From NCBI GenBank assembly GCA_020627985.1, contig JAHDFV010000003.1:1-46397 (forward strand): 46,397 nt of DNA, in the 5' to 3' direction. The position numbers were made by a program, and so were the translations under genes. The stretch's first letter is position 1, and every line of letters starts with the position of its first letter. Shown piece by piece: positions 34,968 through 46,397 of the stretch. The notes under the pieces are model-generated. The model ran no database searches. It was not told where the DNA came from and was given only the letters and a program-made list of their open reading frames with translations. The stretch comes from Saprospiraceae bacterium. GTDB taxonomy: Bacteria; Bacteroidota; Bacteroidia; Chitinophagales; Saprospiraceae.

Positions 34968-35945
34968 TTATTCATTATATAAAACATTAAGGACTACATT
35001 ACCAACAGCACCTAAAGATTTTTTACTGATAACATCCATATTATCATCGTGTGTGTGCCAATATTTACCAAAACCACCATCAGCAGGTCTGTTTATAATA
35101 TCGATGGTTCTTACTCCTCCTTGGTTTACAAAAACGTGATCATCTGTTATTCCTCCAACTCTTGCGTCTACAAAATAATCTCCATATCCCATGTCTTTTG
35201 CGGTTTTCCAAACCTTATTCATAATGTCTGGAGCAAATTGCATTGAATAATCTTCTCTTCCAAAACGAGCCCCTTTTGAACCTACCATATCCAATAAAAT
35301 TCCATACTCTGCTTTATAGCCTTGAACATGTTTGTTTTTTGCCCAATACTGTGAACCTATACACCAGGTTAAAGAAGTATCTTCTGTTCCATCTCCATCT
35401 TTCCCTTGATCTTCTGCATCAAAGAAAATAATATCTACTCCTATATCAATAGGATTTTCTTGTATTACTCTCGCAATCTCCAACAATACACCTACGCCAC
35501 TTGCGCCATCATCAGCTCCAAGAATAGCTTCATTTTTACGTTCGGTATCTTGATCTGCTTGGAAGCGACTATCCCAATGAGCACATAATAGTACCCTTCT
35601 CTTTTTTTCTGGGTTGATTGCTCCAACAATATTTACAGCATCTGCAGATTTTCCAAAATAAAAATCTGCTTTATATTCTTGCATGTATACTTTTGCTCCA
35701 AATGATTCTAATTTGTTTTTCAACCAATTGCTACATTCTTTATGGGCTTTTGTCCCAGGCATTCTTGAACCAAAATCAACTTGTGATTTTACAAATGCAT
35801 ATGCAGAATCTCTATTAATATTGGGTATCTTTTTCTCTTCGATGGTCGTTGTTGTCGTTGTTGTCGAATTTGTTTCAGGCAGTTCACAACTAGAAACTAT
35901 AATGCCTAAAAGAAAAACAAGGAATACTAAAATATATTTATTCAT
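34968..35945 (-). CDS. M28-family glutaminyl-peptide cyclotransferase-like lipoprotein
   Basis: A 325-residue lipoprotein (lipobox Cys20, IIVSSCELPE) followed by a run of seven Thr at residues 28-34. The zinc-enzyme fold of family M28 is clear: CAHWDSR, ILGADDGASGVGVLLE, FFDAEDQG, a DDH in ITDDHVFVNQGG, and WHTHDDN. The C-terminal arrangement (DDH, then a Pro-containing stretch, then WHTHDDN) resembles type II glutaminyl cyclases more than aminopeptidases. Such enzymes turn N-terminal Gln into pyroglutamate. An M28 aminopeptidase role remains possible. It lies just downstream of a paralogue, 14 nt apart, so they are probably cotranscribed. Confidence 0.85.
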   Translation of the reverse strand: MNKYILVFLVFLLGIIVSSCELPETNSTTTTTTTIEEKKIPNINRDSAYAFVKSQVDFGSRMPGTKAHKECSNWLKNKLESFGAKVYMQEYKADFYFGKSADAVNIVGAINPEKKRRVLLCAHWDSRFQADQDTERKNEAILGADDGASGVGVLLEIARVIQENPIDIGVDIIFFDAEDQGKDGDGTEDTSLTWCIGSQYWAKNKHVQGYKAEYGILLDMVGSKGARFGREDYSMQFAPDIMNKVWKTAKDMGYGDYFVDARVGGITDDHVFVNQGGVRTIDIINRPADGGFGKYWHTHDDNMDVISKKSLGAVGNVVLNVLYNE

Positions 35946-35959
35946 AGAAAAATGTTTTG

Positions 35960-36973
35960 TTAGAATGCTCCAACAGATTCATTATATAAAACAGTGGTCA
36001 CTACATTACCCGTTACACCTAAAGTCTTTTTATCAATGATACTCATATTATCATTATGTGTATGCCAATATGTCCCAAACCTACTATTTTTTGGTCTATT
36101 GATGATATCAATAGTAGGAATAGAACCGCTTAACATGGTATTAATGAAATAATGATCATCAATAACCCCTTCTGATTCCTCATCAACAAAATAATTAGAA
36201 TAGCCCAATTCTCTAGCTAGTGTCCAAACCTTATTCATTGTTGTTGGAGCAAAAGCCATTGATGTATTTTCTTTTACAAATCTAGCACCTTTAGATCCTA
36301 CCATATCTAATAGAATACCATATTTTGCTCTATAATTGTTTTGATGTAAATTTTTAACCCAATATTGAGAGCCTAAACACCAGCTATTGGTTGTTTTCTC
36401 ATTTCCTTGATCTTCTACATCAAATAAGATAATATCTACGCCTAAATCAATCGGGTATTTTTGTAATAATCGTGCTACTTCTAAAAGAACTGCAACACCA
36501 CTTCCTCCATCATCCGCTCCTAAAATAGCCTCATCTTTTCTCGTTTTATCTTTATCCGCTACATATCGGCTGTCCCAGTGTGCACACAACATGATTCTTT
36601 TAGATTTTTCTGGATTGATGGCTGCAATGATATTCGTTGCTTCAGCTGAACCACCAAAATGAAAATCTGCTTTAAATTTTTGAAGCATTACTTTTGCACC
36701 ATAGTTTTTGAATTTAGATTCTAACCATTTAGCACAGGCGGCATGTGCTTTTGAACCTGGAACTCTAGGACCAAACGCCACTTGTTTTTCAACAAAATGG
36801 TAGATAGAATCTTCTACAACATTTGGTATTTCTAAAATTATATTTCCGTCTTTCGTATCTTTTGTTTTTTTATCGTCTACTTTTTTTTCTCCTGTACAAC
36901 TAGAAAGTAAGGATAGAATTCCAATTAAAGACCACAATAAATATTTCATGCTTTTCTTTTTTATTATTGACAT
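35960..36973 (-). CDS. M28-family glutaminyl-peptide cyclotransferase-like lipoprotein (paralogue)
   Basis: A 337-residue lipoprotein with lipobox LSLLSSCTG (Cys26, or Cys18 if the internal Met9 MKYLLWSL is the true start). It has CAHWDSRY, ILGADDGGSGVAVLLE, LFDVEDQG, WCLGSQYW, VIDDHYFI and WHTHNDN: the same metal and active-site pattern as its neighbour and as Bacteroidota glutaminyl cyclases. The Asp that follows the His is kept as HNDN instead of HDDN. The two genes are a tandem duplication. A promoter match and a perfect palindrome lie about 150 nt upstream, at 37096-37133. Confidence 0.85.
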   Translation of the reverse strand: MSIIKKKSMKYLLWSLIGILSLLSSCTGEKKVDDKKTKDTKDGNIILEIPNVVEDSIYHFVEKQVAFGPRVPGSKAHAACAKWLESKFKNYGAKVMLQKFKADFHFGGSAEATNIIAAINPEKSKRIMLCAHWDSRYVADKDKTRKDEAILGADDGGSGVAVLLEVARLLQKYPIDLGVDIILFDVEDQGNEKTTNSWCLGSQYWVKNLHQNNYRAKYGILLDMVGSKGARFVKENTSMAFAPTTMNKVWTLARELGYSNYFVDEESEGVIDDHYFINTMLSGSIPTIDIINRPKNSRFGTYWHTHNDNMSIIDKKTLGVTGNVVTTVLYNESVGAF

Positions 36974-37154: not shown

Positions 37155-38681
37155 CTAAAATGGTATATCATCTAAATCGTCATTCATACGAGATGATCTA
37201 GTTATAACACCTGATTGTGCCTTTTTAGGTTCATCTTCTGTATTTCCTCCAAAGAAATCATAATCTGAATCATCCAAATTATCAAATTTAGCAAAAGTAT
37301 CTACCCATTTTAGTTTTACGGTTTCTAATGCTCCATTTCTATGTTTGGCTACGATGATTTCTGCAGTACCTTTAAGAGAATTTCCTTCTTCATCTTCTAA
37401 TATTCCATAATATTCTGGACGATAAATAAAGGATACAATATCTGCATCTTGTTCAATGGCTCCAGATTCTCGCAAATCCGATAACATTGGCTTTTTACTT
37501 CCACCTCTAGATTCTACCGCTCTACTTAATTGTGATAAAGCAATTACTGGAATATTTAATTCCTTAGCAAGACCTTTTAGCGCTCTAGAAATGGCAGAAA
37601 TTTCTTGTTCTCTGTTTCCGTTTTTATTATCAGACTTGCCTGACATCAATTGTAAATAGTCGATTACGACTAATTGTATGTCGTGTTGCATCTTAAGCCT
37701 TCTGCATTTGGCCCTCAATTCAAAAATATTAATACCAGGAGTGTCATCAATAAAGATGGGAACTTCACTCATTTTTTCAATGGCTGAATGAAGTTGTTGC
37801 CATTCATAATCTTCTAGGTTTCCATTTCTCATTTTAGAACCAGGTATCTCTGCTTCTAATGAAATTAATCTTTGTACTAATTGTACATTAGACATCTCCA
37901 GTGAAAATAATGCAACAGGTTTTTCGAAATCCATTGCAGCATTCTTAGCCAAAGCGAGAGTAAAACTCGTTTTACCCATACCTGGTCTAGCAGCTACAAT
38001 AATTAAATCAGAACTTTGCCAACCAGATGTTAAGCGATCTAAATCTACAAAACCTGTAGGAACACCTGTCAAGCCATCTTCTTTAGTTGTCAATTCTTCC
38101 ATTTGTTTTTGGAAACGACTTAAAATGGAGCTCATTCCTTCGTATCCTCTACTTAAATTTTGTTGAGTGATCGAAAATAAACCTTGCTCTGCTTCATCTA
38201 ATAATTGGAAAACATCCGTAGTTTCTTCAAAAGCATCTTTTATCGTCTTGGTAGATACTCGAATCAATTCTCTTTGAATGTGCTTTTGTGCAATGATTCT
38301 TGCGTGGTATTCTATATTAGCTGCAGAAGCTACTCTATTGGTTAATTCAACGAGATAATATGCTCCTCCTATTTTCTCAAGGGAGCCATCTTTTTTTAAT
38401 TCTTCTGTAACCGTCAACATATCGACGGGTTGCGAACGCTCAAATAAATTAAGCATCGCTTTATATATGGCTTTATGCCCTTCGGAATAAAAACTTTGTG
38501 ATTGCAAAGTATCAATTACAACTGGTAAAGCATCCTTATCCAACATTAAGGCTCCAAGCACTGCTTCTTCTAAGGGAATTGCTTGTGGCGGTAATTTGCC
38601 AAAAACAAAATCTGAGAGTTCGTTGCTGGTTCGTTTTAGGTTTCTAGTCCTAGCCACTTTTTTCATTGGGTCATCCGACAT
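37155..38681 (-). CDS. dnaB: Replicative DNA helicase
   Basis: A 508-residue DnaB helicase that unwinds DNA at the fork as a hexamer. The N-terminal domain (LPPQAIPLEEAVLGALMLD near residue 29) and RecA-like motor are present: Walker A ARPGMGKTSF near 231, Walker B LVVIDYLQLMSG, ALSQLSRAVESR, and LRESGAIEQDADIVSFIYRP near the C-terminus. The last 30 residues are acidic and end NDDLDDIPF. It is complete, with no intein. A cluster of DnaA boxes lies about 270-310 nt upstream. Confidence 0.98.
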   Translation of the reverse strand: MSDDPMKKVARTRNLKRTSNELSDFVFGKLPPQAIPLEEAVLGALMLDKDALPVVIDTLQSQSFYSEGHKAIYKAMLNLFERSQPVDMLTVTEELKKDGSLEKIGGAYYLVELTNRVASAANIEYHARIIAQKHIQRELIRVSTKTIKDAFEETTDVFQLLDEAEQGLFSITQQNLSRGYEGMSSILSRFQKQMEELTTKEDGLTGVPTGFVDLDRLTSGWQSSDLIIVAARPGMGKTSFTLALAKNAAMDFEKPVALFSLEMSNVQLVQRLISLEAEIPGSKMRNGNLEDYEWQQLHSAIEKMSEVPIFIDDTPGINIFELRAKCRRLKMQHDIQLVVIDYLQLMSGKSDNKNGNREQEISAISRALKGLAKELNIPVIALSQLSRAVESRGGSKKPMLSDLRESGAIEQDADIVSFIYRPEYYGILEDEEGNSLKGTAEIIVAKHRNGALETVKLKWVDTFAKFDNLDDSDYDFFGGNTEDEPKKAQSGVITRSSRMNDDLDDIPF

Positions 38682-38897
38682 TAATCTTTTCTTTTAGAAA
38701 GAGATAAACTGTTCCCTCTCGAATGGGTTCGAGGGTAGGCCCGTAGTTTCTCAATAGTATTATAATAAATAAGATAAGGACTTTCAATCAGTAAAAAAAT
38801 TAAAAGGAGATTAAAAATATCAATGGTGATATTATTCCTTTATCCTTATTAAATTGAATTCCTTTGATATAGTAAATGTTCTTAAAATTGCTCAATG

Positions 38898-38916
38898 CAA
38901 AGCTAATACAAAACTA
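38898..38916 (-). promoter_or_regulatory. Two overlapping promoter -7 matches upstream of dnaB
   Basis: On the minus strand TAGTTTTG (38909-38916) and TAGCTTTG (38898-38905) each fit TAnnTTTG. They give a dnaB leader of about 210 nt and lie only 33-52 nt from the first DnaA box. Neither has a clear -33 TTTG. Confidence 0.4.
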
Positions 38917-38949: not shown

Positions 38950-38990
38950 TTATCCACAACTGTGGATAACTTTAAAATATTTGTGGATAA
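38950..38990. promoter_or_regulatory. Cluster of three perfect DnaA boxes
   Basis: TTATCCACA occurs at 38950-38958 on the plus strand, and at 38961-38969 and 38982-38990 on the minus strand (as TGTGGATAA). All three equal the high-affinity R1-type consensus. The first two form an inverted pair 2 nt apart. A very AT-rich stretch starts just after. This fits an origin of replication core or a DnaA-controlled promoter. Confidence 0.6.
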
Positions 38991-39344
38991 CTATATCCCT
39001 TTAGTGGAAAAAAAAATGATCGATCCTATAAATATAAAAATTAGAAAATATTTATTAATTGATAATATAGTTATTGATTTACATTAAATACTCTAAAAGA
39101 ACAAGTTATAATACAGTTGGTCATTAAAAAAATATATAAGCCTTTTTATTAACAAACAAATATCTTTGTTTTGATGATTTGAAACGAATAGATGACAAAA
39201 TGTGAGAAAAAATAATAAATATTTTAAACTGCCCTAGCATTTAAATCAATTTGATTCAAACTACATTTTTTTGTTTAAAACTAAAAACATTTCGGCAAAC
39301 ATGCAAGTTACTCAAAATCTAATCTAGACAAGGCTATTACCCTA

Positions 39345-39406: not shown

Positions 39407-42400
39407 TTAGTTCAAAGAGAAACGAATTTGTAAACCAGCGGAAGTGTTAGTAATTGGGAAAGAAGCTGATGTAGCAGGGATCGTTCTACTATAATCATAG
39501 AATAATCTTAGACTCAATTGTTTATTGATCGTATAATCAATTGAAGGTGATAAACGAATCGTTTTCATCCCTCTTGTTGGTACACTTACCCCTTGATCTA
39601 ATAAATGATTAACTGTAATATCATCTCTCCATGAGAAATCAAATTTAAAGGTCATATCATTTCCTTTTCCATCTTTACTTTTTCCTCCTTTATCTTTGCT
39701 GTCCTTGTCATCTTTACCTCTATTCTTCTTTAACTTTAATTTATTACCTGTAAAGTCTCCAAAATCTAAGAACTTGATATACACATTTTTCAATCTATAT
39801 CCTAAGCCTACAATAAACTCATCTGAACGTGTTTCACTTAATTGATAATCGGTAAAACTCATTGCTAAGTTTCTAGATTTCTTCCAATCCAATCTAGCCG
39901 TAAGGTCATTTTTGAAACGCATATCGACTCCAATTAAAGGGGATAATTGTTCAGAAATCACTAAGCCAGGCACCTCATACTCTGAATAATAATTTTCTGT
40001 ATTTACATTCTTTAAATTTTCTTCAAAGTCAAAGTCTGTATTAAAGCTATTAATACTTAATCCAGATTTATAACCGTGTTGTAATGTAAAGCTTGAAAAG
40101 ATTTTATCAAATCCTTTTACTTTGTGTAAACCCTTATAATTCAACTTCCAATTCGGTAAAGGAATCATTCTGAATAATCCTGGTTTACCATTGTCAGATT
40201 TCTTTAAAACATCTAAAGCTGCTTTGTTAGGATCCTTTCCTCTATATGCTGATAAAAATGCAGGAACTAATACATCTAATTGATATCGCCCATATCCTTC
40301 ATAATAATTAGCATCTTCGTCATGATCAATTAAAGATCCGTTATCATATGCCTCATTTAATCTTGCTGAAATGATTTCTCTATTGGCTTCAAATTGTTCA
40401 AATAAAGCGAAGTAATCTTTTTTGAATAATGTTCCTAAAGTAAAGTAAGACATTTGGAACGAGCCCATATCTCTCGGTGCTAAATAATCAAAATCACTTG
40501 TTGGATCTACTTTCTTATAATAAGCAGAACTATTTTCAGTGAATTTACGGTTTGCTTCCAAATCAATATTAAAGTCATTAAACGGTTCTATGGTTACTTT
40601 AGCGGAAATATCTTGAGAGTGAGTTCCTAATACTTGTTGATTCAAATAAATACTCTCTGAAATCCATCCTTGATTTTGATTTAACCAAGCTTCATCAGCT
40701 TGTTTTAGACCAAATACATAATCCCAACCAGGAGCAGAGAAATCATTATTCATTCCTAGTAATCGTTGGTTTTGTGTAAACCCTGGAACAATACTAGAGA
40801 ATTGTTCTGAATACGTAAATCTTGCTTTTCGAAGCATCATCAAAGGTCTTAAAATAGCTTTAGCAACAGCTGAAGGTTCTTTATCTTTCTTATCCTTCTT
40901 TGCCTTCCCGTCTTTGCCTTTGCCATCTTTTCCTTTATCATCAGCTACATTCTTATCTTTATCATTTTTCTTATCCAGTAGATCTTTTGCTCTGTTTCCT
41001 GTTCTACCTTTTGAAGACTTTTTCTTTGAATTAATTTTCTTCAAATATTTAGACTTATTGTATAGTGTCGTGAAATCAATGTCTCCATTAATTTGTCGAG
41101 TTTGTCCATTTTGAATAACATTACCTAAGCTAACACCATCTACATCGAAACCATTTAATGCAGCAGCTTGCCAAGAGTAATTGGCGTTGTACTGTGCTTT
41201 AACTTTTAAGAAATCTAAAAATGGGAAATTTTTAAATGGCACATCAAAGGTTACATTTACGTTTTGTTGAAATCCTTTGTTCCGTCCCCAATCTTTAATG
41301 TTACCCCAAATTTCTTCTTTTGCTTCATCCGTTCCTATAAATGTTTCATCTAATTCATCAATTACAGTATTGGTCACTGCATTGTAATTAAACTTCAATG
41401 ACTTAGATAAATCCCATTTTAAATCATAAGATCTATCCCAATTGAATTTTCTATTATACCATGTATTCTGGCTTGGATCAGAGAAACGATAAGTTGTTTC
41501 TTGAAACTGACGCTGCATTCTTGTACTAAAAGAAAATGAATTAGGATATGGATTAAAATTAAAGTCGGTAAAGAATTTCAAATACTTAGCCGCACCTGGT
41601 TTCTTCACTGCCTTTTTAAAGGGTGTTATGTATTTTACTTTTGTAGAAAAATTATAATCAATAATTCCTTGATGATCTTTTAGTTGATCATTTGCGATTA
41701 AAGGTGTTCTTCTTTCTGTATTTGAATAAGCATAAGTTAAACTTAAGTTTTCAACATCCCAAGGCATTGGTTTTTTCTTGGTGTTGGTTCTTTCTTTTCT
41801 AACATTTGTTACATTGACACTTTTAATTTTTGTAACATCTTGTGCTGATTCCTTAATTTCTTTCCGTTCATCTCTATCAGAAGTAGAATTCAATTTATCT
41901 TTTAATTCAATATCTAGATCATACGGATCGTATTGAGGATTCTTAGTTATGTTAGAATATTGAGCGTAAACAGGTATTTTAATTCCTGCTTTCTCAGGGA
42001 AGAAACGACCTAACTCTACATTACCGGCAATATCATATTGAATTTTTTCTTCTCTACTTCTTTGTTCTAATTTTTGCTCTAATCCACCAAATCCAATTGA
42101 AGTATAATTTGTTGACATGTTAATATTACCAAAATCGGCTAATTGAACATCTAAACGAGCCAATGCACCCCAGCCTCCTCTTTCATCAAAGCCACTCATT
42201 CGTAATTCATTACACCATATTTCAGCACATTTTGAAAGTCCATCATCTTCTGTGTTTCGAACTCCAATCATAATGCTTTTCACTAATCCTAAATTAGGAT
42301 TTCCTTTTACTCCTATATTATTAAGAGGATTTTCAGGATCAGGAATTGAGTATAAAAAGTTTAGTGCTGCATTGGTTGAATTCCTTTCTTTCTTTACATC

Positions 42401-45400
42401 TTGTAATAGAGCAAGTTTTAATGCAATTCTATTGGCTTCTGGCCAAACTTCTTCTGCATATGCTCCTTCATCTAAGCCTGTAACATCTCCAGACATTTCT
42501 AAAGGAATCTCATACTCATAATAGTTTTTTTCGAAATCCGAACCTAGCCGTATAAACATAGTTAATTCTCCTGGAGCGATATTATCATCATTATCTGGTT
42601 CGGCATGTACAAACATTTTCAATTCTTTAAACAGACGTAAGTCTAAGTTTAAATTCTTAAATATTCCCCTTGCATCGCCATCCTTTAGGTTACAAATATT
42701 CATCGCAAGGGACTGTTCATTTTGAAGAGCATTGTTAAATGCAGATCCTATTTGTTGTTCTCTTTGAACTCCAGGAGGTAATACATAGTTGTACGGATCT
42801 TTAGCACTATTTTCTTCTAAATTCACTTCATTTACATCAAAAATAGTTTCATTGTTTTGATCGACAACTGTACCAATACCTGATTCAGCTAAAGAACGAG
42901 AATATCTTCTCCATTGATTTCTTACTAATTCGAAACGCGCAAAACGCATAACAGCTGGCGTATCAAATTTATTCATATACATTCTAATAAATCGAATAGA
43001 TCTAAAATCTTGAATGCCTCCAACCCTAGAAGTATATTGATCTATTGGCACTTTAACTCTATACCAAATTCTACCATTGTCTGCATTAGCTCTATCAATC
43101 ACAAAATCATTTAATTCCATTTCACCTGCATTAGATGCCCTTTTGATTGGAATTTTATATTGATAGTATGATTCTGTTTCATTCAGTGTATTATCCTTAT
43201 TGATATCTTCAGAATCAGGAATATTTGTTGCTGAATTTACTTGGTTTACAGATTGAGCCGAATTTCCTTGTGGATTATTATAGTTGAGATATCTTTCAAA
43301 TACTTGATCGTTTTCTGTAAAGGAATCATCATTATAATATATGAAATTATCATTAGAAACATCTTCTAGGATTTGATCTTTTATTCCATTAGGAATGGTT
43401 GGATCATTTTCAATCGCTGAAACATAATTAGCATATAATTCTCTTTCACCTGCATCATCTACACCATCTAATCCTACATCTTGTGCATTTCTTACATTTT
43501 CATCATTATCAAATGATCGAGTAATCGCACTTGTTCTTGGAATTCTTGACCATTGGGTTTCATCCGTTGTTGTTTCAGATCCTTCTGCTGGTAAACCATT
43601 TTCAAAAAATAATCTTGAATCCCTTAATACGTCCTCTGAAATGTTACCTAAATTGATATTTAGTTCTCCATCACTAACTAAAGAGACAGATCCATCTGAT
43701 TCAGGTAGAAATGGGCTTAACATCCAAAATTCGATAAACTCAACATTTGCTGCTTCAAAGTTATTGGTATTTAAAGATCTTTGAATACCTGCCCATCTTG
43801 TCTCTGGATCTCTTAATCCTCCACTATTGTTCAAACCTGACGAATAAGCCGTACCTCCAGGTAAATCAAAATTATAAGGACCTTTTTCATCAGGATAATA
43901 AGCTAAATCCAGCGTACGAATATTATTGTTAGCAATATTATTTCCTCCTATTGTTGTATTCGGAAAAATCTCTTGTATACTTACAGCACTCGTATAAAAG
44001 TTACTATTAATTTCTGTTGTATTAATCGAACGATCGATTTGGTACCAAGCTAATCTTGCTCTATTTACACCTGAAAGTGTTGTATCAATAAACTCTGCTT
44101 CAGGAAAATCAGGGTTATTTCCAAATTGATCTCCTTGAGGAACAGAAGCTAATGTCCATGCATTAGCAGGAATTCTTAAATCTAAACTCGTTGTTGAGCC
44201 TTCAAAATCATCTACATAAACAACACCTTGATCTTCTTGTGAGATGGCTTTCGCATGACCAGGATTTAAGTAAGCTGCTTCAGCCATGAAAGAAACATTA
44301 GAAGGAGCTTTAGTATTAATTAAAGGTATTTTATCTACCATTTTAGTAATCCAAGGTGCTTCTGTTGAATATTGAACATCTGCTCCATAAATACTATTAT
44401 TAATTGGATCATCTCCAATATTTACTTTTTGAGTAAATGGCCTTTCATATAATTTCATGACCGTACCCCCTACATTGAAGTTTTCACTAATTTTATAATC
44501 TGCTCTTAAACCCAATAAGGTTTTGGTTTGGAATCCAAATAGGGTATTGTCTTCAAAGGAAACATTAATGGGAACTCCAGAATTTAAAAAAGATTCATTG
44601 ATGATTTTTACTCGACCAATATTATAATCAACTGTATAATCTGAACCTTCTTGTAAAACTTGTCCACCTGCTCTTACAACAACCGAACCTCTAGGAATAT
44701 TAAAGGCACCTAATGATATTTCTGAAGAAACACTTGAACGATAATTACCCCAAATTGTGAAACGATTAAATTCAGGATATTCTCTTGCAGCAACTACTGT
44801 AGAATCATATAATTGTTGATATGTAAATTGATCAGCTTCTGCTGAAATAGCTGGATTAACAGTTGTTGAAGCATCAAGTATGCTTTGTTTTAAAGCAGTA
44901 CCAAATGGTTCTAAAACGGGGAACATAATTCTACCGTTCCTTGAATTTATAGTTATCCCTTCAACAAAGTCAAAACGTCCATCTGGTTGAGGATCATTTT
45001 GATTGTTTAAATTATCTAAATTAAATACTTGTAATAAAGGTTTTCCTTCTAATGCTGTTGCTGGTAAAAATCTTTTTTGCCCTCCACCTGGATCTTCATA
45101 AGCGATATCCAATACGAAATCTTCTCTACTCACTTGAAATGCTCCTATTGAATAGATATTTTTCATCATTAAATCCCACATAGGAATATCCACTCTAGGA
45201 GTTGTACTTTTTAACATTTTTACATAAAGCACATTTAAATCATCTGGATCTACAGGAACATCATTCGTAAACTCACCAATTTTATATACTTCTCCATTGT
45301 AAGTATATTCCATTGCAACTCCAAGTACATCTTCAGGTTGTAAAGCAACGTTTAAAGAAACAAATCCAAGCTCAGAATTGAAATTATATTCATTCGCTGA

Positions 45401-46397
45401 AAGCATTCTTGCTCTTACTTTTTCGAAGTCTCTTGCTTGTTGTAATTGATACGTTCCTTGTAATTGAGCTACAGCGCCATCAATTTGTCTAGCTGTAGGA
45501 TTATTAATAATCTCATTATACATTGGATTTGCTTCATTTGTTGGTAAAGCATTTGTTCCATTGATATCTGGATTTGTTGGAATTAACGGCGCTTGGAATA
45601 AAGGATTTGTATTTGCAATTTTATCATTATCTCCTTCACCTAAGTCAGCTATTGCAACAATATCCCTTACGTTTTCAGTTTGGTTTCTAGTATTGGTTAC
45701 CCATACTTCCATTCTTTGAATCGTAAATAAACTTCTTACCTGTGGCATTTGTTCTAAAGCAGGCTCAAAGGTTTCTCTGTTAAAGTGAGAAATAAAGAAG
45801 TGCCTATTTTCATCATAATCATCTGTAGAAACTTCAAAGTTTTGGACCTGACTTCCTCCTTGTATTTGGATTTCGTTTCTTTTAGATTTTTGTTGTGAAG
45901 CAACACCTGTTAAAGTCATTCGACCAAAGCGTAATTCTGTTTTTACACCAAATAAACTTTGGGATCCTTTAATTAATGAAGATCTTAATGGTAGACTTAC
46001 ATTACCTGCTTCAATTTTTTGAATGATATCATCTTCTCCACCAGAATACTCTAGTTTCATTTGATTTTCAAAATTGAAGGTTGCTTGAGTATTATAACTT
46101 GTACCCAATTTCATCTTATCTCCAATTTGGCCTGTAACATTCATTTGAATGTTCATATCAAAATCAAATCCTCCTTGTCTTCTTTGTCTTTCTGGAATAA
46201 TGGGATTATCCACTTTTTGATAATCTGCCCCTAATGTTAAATCAATATTTCCTTGAGGTTTGATTTCAATTTTTGTACCACCAAATAATTTGTCCAGCAA
46301 ATTTTTAGGTACATCAATTTCCATCATTGGATCGGTTTTGCCACTATCGCCATACGAGTTTTGAGTATTTCTGGAGAGTTTATCGAAGTAATCACTT
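39407..46397 (-). CDS. sprA: SprA, type IX secretion outer-membrane translocon (5' end missing)
   Basis: The frame is open from the stop at 39407 to the window end; the Met at 46327 is not the start, because 23 more codons without a stop follow to the edge (SDYFDKLSRNTQNSYGDSGK and onward). About 2,330 residues are visible; Flavobacterium johnsoniae SprA has about 2,400, so only a short N-terminus is missing. Recognisable parts are the repeated TLGADYQKVDNPIIPERQRR / SEISLGAFNIPRGSVVVRAG regions, VYVDDFEGSTTSLDLR, and a C-terminal beta-barrel with many alternating strands ending LQIRFSLN. SprA forms the giant barrel through which type IX cargo crosses the outer membrane. Two Lys/Asp/Gly-rich insertions are noted near 39.7 and 40.95 kb. 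Confidence 0.95.
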   Translation of the reverse strand, partial: SDYFDKLSRNTQNSYGDSGKTDPMMEIDVPKNLLDKLFGGTKIEIKPQGNIDLTLGADYQKVDNPIIPERQRRQGGFDFDMNIQMNVTGQIGDKMKLGTSYNTQATFNFENQMKLEYSGGEDDIIQKIEAGNVSLPLRSSLIKGSQSLFGVKTELRFGRMTLTGVASQQKSKRNEIQIQGGSQVQNFEVSTDDYDENRHFFISHFNRETFEPALEQMPQVRSLFTIQRMEVWVTNTRNQTENVRDIVAIADLGEGDNDKIANTNPLFQAPLIPTNPDINGTNALPTNEANPMYNEIINNPTARQIDGAVAQLQGTYQLQQARDFEKVRARMLSANEYNFNSELGFVSLNVALQPEDVLGVAMEYTYNGEVYKIGEFTNDVPVDPDDLNVLYVKMLKSTTPRVDIPMWDLMMKNIYSIGAFQVSREDFVLDIAYEDPGGGQKRFLPATALEGKPLLQVFNLDNLNNQNDPQPDGRFDFVEGITINSRNGRIMFPVLEPFGTALKQSILDASTTVNPAISAEADQFTYQQLYDSTVVAAREYPEFNRFTIWGNYRSSVSSEISLGAFNIPRGSVVVRAGGQVLQEGSDYTVDYNIGRVKIINESFLNSGVPINVSFEDNTLFGFQTKTLLGLRADYKISENFNVGGTVMKLYERPFTQKVNIGDDPINNSIYGADVQYSTEAPWITKMVDKIPLINTKAPSNVSFMAEAAYLNPGHAKAISQEDQGVVYVDDFEGSTTSLDLRIPANAWTLASVPQGDQFGNNPDFPEAEFIDTTLSGVNRARLAWYQIDRSINTTEINSNFYTSAVSIQEIFPNTTIGGNNIANNNIRTLDLAYYPDEKGPYNFDLPGGTAYSSGLNNSGGLRDPETRWAGIQRSLNTNNFEAANVEFIEFWMLSPFLPESDGSVSLVSDGELNINLGNISEDVLRDSRLFFENGLPAEGSETTTDETQWSRIPRTSAITRSFDNDENVRNAQDVGLDGVDDAGERELYANYVSAIENDPTIPNGIKDQILEDVSNDNFIYYNDDSFTENDQVFERYLNYNNPQGNSAQSVNQVNSATNIPDSEDINKDNTLNETESYYQYKIPIKRASNAGEMELNDFVIDRANADNGRIWYRVKVPIDQYTSRVGGIQDFRSIRFIRMYMNKFDTPAVMRFARFELVRNQWRRYSRSLAESGIGTVVDQNNETIFDVNEVNLEENSAKDPYNYVLPPGVQREQQIGSAFNNALQNEQSLAMNICNLKDGDARGIFKNLNLDLRLFKELKMFVHAEPDNDDNIAPGELTMFIRLGSDFEKNYYEYEIPLEMSGDVTGLDEGAYAEEVWPEANRIALKLALLQDVKKERNSTNAALNFLYSIPDPENPLNNIGVKGNPNLGLVKSIMIGVRNTEDDGLSKCAEIWCNELRMSGFDERGGWGALARLDVQLADFGNINMSTNYTSIGFGGLEQKLEQRSREEKIQYDIAGNVELGRFFPEKAGIKIPVYAQYSNITKNPQYDPYDLDIELKDKLNSTSDRDERKEIKESAQDVTKIKSVNVTNVRKERTNTKKKPMPWDVENLSLTYAYSNTERRTPLIANDQLKDHQGIIDYNFSTKVKYITPFKKAVKKPGAAKYLKFFTDFNFNPYPNSFSFSTRMQRQFQETTYRFSDPSQNTWYNRKFNWDRSYDLKWDLSKSLKFNYNAVTNTVIDELDETFIGTDEAKEEIWGNIKDWGRNKGFQQNVNVTFDVPFKNFPFLDFLKVKAQYNANYSWQAAALNGFDVDGVSLGNVIQNGQTRQINGDIDFTTLYNKSKYLKKINSKKKSSKGRTGNRAKDLLDKKNDKDKNVADDKGKDGKGKDGKAKKDKKDKEPSAVAKAILRPLMMLRKARFTYSEQFSSIVPGFTQNQRLLGMNNDFSAPGWDYVFGLKQADEAWLNQNQGWISESIYLNQQVLGTHSQDISAKVTIEPFNDFNIDLEANRKFTENSSAYYKKVDPTSDFDYLAPRDMGSFQMSYFTLGTLFKKDYFALFEQFEANREIISARLNEAYDNGSLIDHDEDANYYEGYGRYQLDVLVPAFLSAYRGKDPNKAALDVLKKSDNGKPGLFRMIPLPNWKLNYKGLHKVKGFDKIFSSFTLQHGYKSGLSINSFNTDFDFEENLKNVNTENYYSEYEVPGLVISEQLSPLIGVDMRFKNDLTARLDWKKSRNLAMSFTDYQLSETRSDEFIVGLGYRLKNVYIKFLDFGDFTGNKLKLKKNRGKDDKDSKDKGGKSKDGKGNDMTFKFDFSWRDDITVNHLLDQGVSVPTRGMKTIRLSPSIDYTINKQLSLRLFYDYSRTIPATSASFPITNTSAGLQIRFSLN

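Follow-up and report, generated by a model that had tools for sequence, protein, structure and literature searches.

The DnaA regulon of Caulobacter crescentus was reportedly defined by Hottes et al. in 2005, with DnaA boxes found upstream of dnaB, the gene for the replicative helicase. In one account of this bacterium, boxes are predicted upstream of dnaB, transcription of dnaB depends on DnaA, and the ribonucleotide reductase genes are proposed as further DnaA targets (PMC8203912). A DnaA pull-down in Mycobacterium tuberculosis showed enrichment of a site upstream of dnaB, and its authors draw a link to the Caulobacter case (PMC7738170). For Escherichia coli, DnaA is described as able to activate or to repress nrdAB (PMC8203912), and as preferring boxes 2–3 bp apart, which corresponds to 11–12 nt from start to start (PMC11317965). 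No report of a DnaA regulon, or of DnaA at dnaB, was found for Bacteroidota in the open-access literature.

Here we analyse a contig stretch of 46,397 nt from a Saprospiraceae bacterium (the window), in which three exact DnaA boxes lie upstream of dnaB. With a probability of about 0.8, we read these boxes as a putative DnaA operator of the dnaB promoter, at which cooperative binding on one face of the helix would alter dnaB transcription. The connection between DnaA and dnaB itself is already known elsewhere, and it is the layout in helical register that we did not find described. Bacteroidota would be a third phylum with an apparent regulatory link between the initiator and the gene for the replicative helicase.

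The locus shares with the Caulobacter regulon the boxes upstream of dnaB and the sites at ribonucleotide reductase genes, but it belongs to another phylum, and the passages of that account concerned with these genes describe no promoter-register array extending over two families (PMC8203912). The M. tuberculosis site is likewise located upstream of dnaB and also in another phylum; binding is experimental there, whereas here the site is known from its sequence (PMC7738170). Similarities to E. coli are the sites at a ribonucleotide reductase promoter and the preference for a 2–3 bp separation (PMC8203912, PMC11317965). The E. coli double boxes are modelled in tandem, however, while the 2-bp pair of the window is inverted, and the direct spacing of 21–22 nt that is common in relatives of the window is also unlike that of the double boxes (PMC11317965). 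The promoter type, TAnnTTTG in the window, differs from that of E. coli nrdAB (PMC8203912).

DnaA boxes precede dnaB in the window and in relatives

The three copies of TTATCCACA occupy positions 38950..38958 (+), 38961..38969 (−) and 38982..38990 (−). The first two form a palindromic pair with a 2-bp gap, of which the first is the promoter-side arm, and the third follows after a gap of 12 nt, 21 nt from start to start. A scan of the window places the whole triple, 41 nt in length, upstream of dnaB (37155..38681, −; PF00772 and PF03796), which encodes the replicative DNA helicase and is the gene presumed to be controlled. Sites resembling TTATCCACA with at most one mismatch number 13 in the window against 15.5 expected, so there is no overall excess and it is the clustering that is unusual. 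The genome of origin (G000) is an incomplete metagenome-assembled genome (MAG; 82.66% complete), and its 445 contigs together hold 57 exact sites, compared with 47 for the backwards motif. At this density about 6e-6 triples as tight as the one upstream of dnaB are expected, and no second place with three such close boxes exists among the 57 sites; the original prediction, which had called three exact boxes within 41 nt far above chance, was correct in this respect and in the positions. The next-tightest groups are two pairs. One (C238:4956/4986) is located immediately beyond the 3′ end of a gene of the DUF255 family, on a contig that ends about 330 nt away, and the other (C24:5945/6026) is inside an ORF. 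A different ratio is seen in the whole genome of G192, a member of the same genus, where TTATCCACA occurs 242 times and the backwards motif 83 times, unlike the 57 and 47 of G000.

As had been anticipated, no gap of the window is longer than the one that holds the array, the 725 nt between dnaB and the upstream gene sprA (39407..46327, −; PF14349). The accompanying claim of a very AT-rich neighbourhood is correct for a 50-nt stretch at 39032–39081 (92% AT) but not for the gap overall, which is ordinary, with an AT content of 74.5% compared with 75.4% for the intergenic DNA of the window as a whole. The presence of sprA is not needed for the array, because in one relative (L034) sprA was not found within 10 kb upstream of dnaB and boxes nevertheless remain at −313, −302 and −280. 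In another (L025), sprA is located just upstream of dnaB.

Control of dnaB by DnaA had been proposed together with a check on orthologous promoters, and boxes are indeed kept in most of those examined. Among the 44 regions upstream of dnaB, which amount to 43 different ones because L025 and L037 are one contig, 38 contain at least one box with no more than one mismatch, and six have none. The 30 best-scoring dnaB loci out of 114 Saprospiraceae genomes with a match, the window included, contain 61 boxes within 450 nt upstream, against 4.5 ± 2.1 (maximum 13) in dinucleotide shuffles, and 19 of exact sequence, against 0.12 expected. Similar values were obtained for the 30 best-scoring loci among 56 Chitinophagaceae genomes with a match (45 boxes against 4.5 ± 2.1, maximum 11, in dinucleotide shuffles; 12 exact boxes against 0.17 expected). 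Two or more boxes are present at 21 of the 30 Saprospiraceae loci and at 14 of the 30 Chitinophagaceae loci. The signal is weaker in other Bacteroidia, where the 29 loci that scored best among 115 further genomes with a match yield 22 boxes against 4.3 ± 1.9 in mononucleotide shuffles, with any box at 14 of the 29 loci. Eight of 20 additional loci, which were picked by hand, have any box; one locus (L265) comes from the same genome as L238.

Within a 580-kb stretch of the G192 genome, dnaB is the only one of 420 ORFs of at least 150 aa to be preceded within 450 nt by two or more exact boxes. When one mismatch is permitted, at least two boxes precede 25 of these 420 ORFs and a close pair precedes 10, so that dnaB is not unique at this level.

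Helical register with the likely dnaB promoter

Two matches to TAnnTTTG, which we take to be the consensus of the Bacteroidota −7 element, lie between the array and dnaB. The likely dnaB promoter is TAGCTTTG (38898..38905, −), at 44 nt from the nearest box. The second match, TAGTTTTG (38909..38916, −), is more distant from the ATG by 11 nt and has its nearest box 33 nt away; two −7 matches at 30–90 nt from the boxes had been predicted. Upstream of dnaB in relatives, TAnnTTTG is over-represented, with 41 occurrences against 9.1 ± 3.2 in mononucleotide shuffles, and in a further comparison 20 against 3.9.

Among Saprospiraceae box pairs no more than 35 nt apart, 22 of 25 are separated by 11, 21–22 or 32–33 nt from start to start. 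The distance from the nearest box edge to TAnnTTTG takes values of 31–33, 41–44, 51–54, 60–62, 73–75 and 84 bp in this family, and in Chitinophagaceae the corresponding distances from the nearest box to TAnnTTCG are 54, 63–65, 73–76, 84–86, 108 and 116. At a period of 10.5 bp the register amounts to R = 0.74 for Saprospiraceae (n = 22 of 30 loci; 0.79 with n = 20 when the genus of the window is left out) and to R = 0.86 for Chitinophagaceae (n = 16 of 30 loci), in a test whose loci share ancestry and which was not blind, since its rule was written after a looser first pass that had taken in far-upstream motifs at L038 and L039. Under this rule, each locus was represented by whichever motif with a box 20–120 nt upstream came closest to the ATG, and only the nearest box was used; eight Saprospiraceae and 14 Chitinophagaceae loci lacked a usable box–promoter pair. 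None of 5000 jittered sets reached the observed best register value in any of these cases. No such order is seen in the distance from box to ATG, which served as a control (0.28 for Saprospiraceae and 0.43 for Chitinophagaceae at 10.5 bp) and has a spread 5.0 and 2.8 times larger than that of the distance from box to −7 element. The three other TAnnXXXX motifs that could be tested in Saprospiraceae (n of at least 8) gave values of 0.21–0.28. Two features expected of a DnaA-regulated promoter, conserved upstream boxes and a fixed helical register, are present, and the register supports the proposal of DnaA control.

We therefore propose, as a model, that DnaA molecules would occupy the array cooperatively, aligned along one face of the DNA and upstream of the −7 element, and that array-bound DnaA would change the rate of dnaB transcription, with a sign and a cell-cycle timing that we infer. 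Sites of class I activators lie upstream of the promoter by whole helical turns. Contact with RNA polymerase, leading to activation, would be likelier than promoter occlusion because the boxes are placed 31–84 bp upstream in whole turns, and boxes in a 10.5-bp register with a −7 element may serve as a signature that predicts such contact. Regulation of dnaB by DnaA is thus probable, with activation as the expected sign. It would also be possible, as at E. coli nrdAB, that the level of DnaA and its bound nucleotide decide between activation and repression, so that the array acts as a switch.

The leader of dnaB may provide a second, post-transcriptional control. A hairpin at 38709..38743 (−), part of the 5′ region directly before the ATG, is kept in five close relatives, and five of its 15 predicted pairs are changed on both sides, with a covariation term of only −0.11 over the six sequences. 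A search of the whole window against Rfam, this hairpin included, gave no match at the gathering score. Downstream of dnaB are two tandem M28 peptidase genes (34968–36973, −), which are paired in several relatives too. In several Saprospiraceae (for example G280, G199 and G288) the dnaB frames are 700–1277 aa long with split matches, which suggests putative inteins; the dnaB of the window bears no sign of one.

Palindromic pairs at nrdB and alternative roles of the array

The strict form of the palindromic pair, TTWTCCACAN{2,3}TGTGGAWAA, occurs at four places in six genomes of the family, and all four are upstream of dnaB or nrdB, the latter identified by PF00268: at dnaB of the window and at nrdB of the same genome, of G173 and of G111. 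Its only two occurrences in the genome of the window are thus those upstream of dnaB and of nrdB. The nrdB pair of this genome is located at L172:1047-1067, and two inverted pairs, 65–67 nt apart, precede nrdB in both G173 (L169:1021-1106) and G111 (L170:1297-1382). In the genome of the window and in G173 the pair lies more than 350 nt from the start of the ORF. The nrdB upstream regions of G192 and G241 contain weak boxes only, and TAnnTTTG was not found in those of three of five loci (L169, L170 and L014). Across 198 genomes of the order, 12 contain a looser form of the pair, once at dnaB, three times at nrdB, once at a likely oriC and seven times elsewhere or at unassigned loci; four of these seven were placed by the Pfam families of their neighbours (G189, G182, G194, G186), and the other three are L019–L021. 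As nrdB carries similar pairs, DnaA would adjust the supply of helicase and of dNTPs together.

The upstream regions of dnaA itself, three of which are truncated at 0–136 nt, contain at most one weak box in each of six genomes, and for this reason there appears to be no classical autoregulation of dnaA. The DnaA protein of the window's genome contains the DNA-binding domain family and a DHST signature, in favour of the proposed DnaA operator.

Could the array instead be a reservoir or nucleotide-exchange site for DnaA of the datA or DARS type, located at dnaB by chance and controlling the timing of initiation rather than dnaB? Its order on the + strand, > < <, is that of the bioD–uvrB gap of E. 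coli MG1655, which we take to be DARS1. The likeness to the DARS1 core (PMC8682772) ends with three boxes in this order on one strand, as the spacing differs and the order in the window is not kept in relatives. Successive box starts are separated by 14 and 12 nt in DARS1, compared with 11 and 21 nt in the window. The order is not conserved because most pairs in relatives are direct repeats: pairs of the >> type outnumber >< pairs in Saprospiraceae, and all Chitinophagaceae pairs within 60 nt are <<. A three-box core of defined order and spacing is accordingly not conserved, and a reservoir would not be expected to stand in register with a −7 element, which together make this explanation improbable. 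Equally doubtful is a combination of the two roles, in which the array would be both a helix-phased activator site, where the initiator touches the RNA polymerase of Bacteroidota and so serves helicase supply and, at nrdB, dNTP supply, and an exchange site of the DARS or datA type that times initiation. Were it to hold, the link between DnaA and dnaB would be an old circuit common to several phyla, those of Caulobacter and the mycobacteria included.

Another regulator with a site resembling TTATCCACA might occupy the boxes in place of DnaA. This would suit the palindromic arrangement of two of the sites in the window, as well as the 15 of 61 Saprospiraceae boxes and 20 of 45 Chitinophagaceae boxes that fall outside the E. 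coli consensus; TTATCAACA is the commonest such variant in Saprospiraceae (9 of 15). The remaining 46 of the 61 Saprospiraceae boxes, however, fit TT[A/T]TNCACA, the consensus given for the DnaA box (PMC8682772), many arrays are direct repeats, and the same nonamers build the large arrays found where replication of G241 and G180 is likely to start. Recognition by a protein other than DnaA is accordingly very improbable.

The likely replication origin

That the dnaB–sprA gap is oriC, with DnaA boxes and adjoining AT-rich DNA at which the duplex opens, is hardly credible, as neither G192 nor G173 shows a skew switch at dnaB and the array keeps a register with the promoter that an origin does not need.

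This possibility had been raised in the original prediction on account of the three exact boxes, the AT-rich flank and the longest gap of the window. It might be added in its favour that neither ctaA nor the SRAP gene was found in the incomplete MAG from which the window derives, and that the ctaA–SRAP gap of G192, from the same genus, has no box at up to one mismatch. The base skew of the window follows gene strand, as had been noted by eye, and decides nothing about the origin. For relatives, raw skew was supplemented by four-fold sites averaged over the gene strands, to allow for the bias that gene strand introduces. The DnaB of G192 is 90% identical to that of the window, and skew was calculated over 29 adjacent 20-kb stretches of its 583-kb contig C134. 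All stretches between 0 and 520 kb have negative skew, and dnaB is located among them, at 150 kb. The cumulative minimum falls at about 525–530 kb, approximately 375 kb from dnaB; the strand-averaged four-fold sites agree in every stretch that could be measured on both strands. For G173, a relative assembled as a single contig of 7.5 Mb and sampled in 29 stretches, skew changes from negative to positive at 2.33–2.35 Mb and reverts somewhere from 6.0 to 6.5 Mb; a single stretch, at 2.59 Mb, departs from this pattern with a value close to zero (−0.001). Its dnaB, at 1.23 Mb, is 1.1 Mb from the first of these turns, and its dnaA is at 1.2 kb. The dnaB site thus does not coincide with a GC-skew minimum in either relative.

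The skew minimum of G192 and the first turn of G173 instead coincide with a pair of genes, ctaA (PF02628) and SRAP (PF02586), which is divergent in G192 (L138:8666-9266) and whose counterpart in G173 (L149:10803-11405) encodes homologous proteins that are 42% identical. Boxes crowd at the G173 pair. The ctaA–SRAP neighbourhood is thus the likely oriC of Saprospiraceae, away from dnaA in G173 and away from dnaB in both genomes. It resembles the dnaB array in that some members carry the same nonamers, and differs from it in lying at the skew minimum, which the dnaB site does not. Most likely, then, the dnaB site tunes the supply of helicase rather than starting replication. A misleading cluster of DnaA boxes can in this way be told apart from the likely origin in this family, a separation that matters for origin-finding programs and for the construction of replicating plasmids.

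Further members of the family are consistent with this placement. The 1 kb upstream of ctaA in G241 holds 18 boxes, six of them exact, and SRAP lies beside ctaA in G182, with five boxes in the gap between them; skew in these two genomes is too weak to place the origin by itself (20 and 16 stretches of 20 kb, respectively). Three boxes are found in the 759 nt upstream of ctaA in G111. The palindromic pair of G182, at 7.53 Mb beside an OmpA-family gene, is accompanied by no clear skew switch in a genome whose skew is weak throughout. In G180, from a sister family, 12 boxes lie between nadA and the gene for NADH-oxidoreductase chain 3, at 1.27 Mb from dnaB, and their density marks this site as a likely origin.
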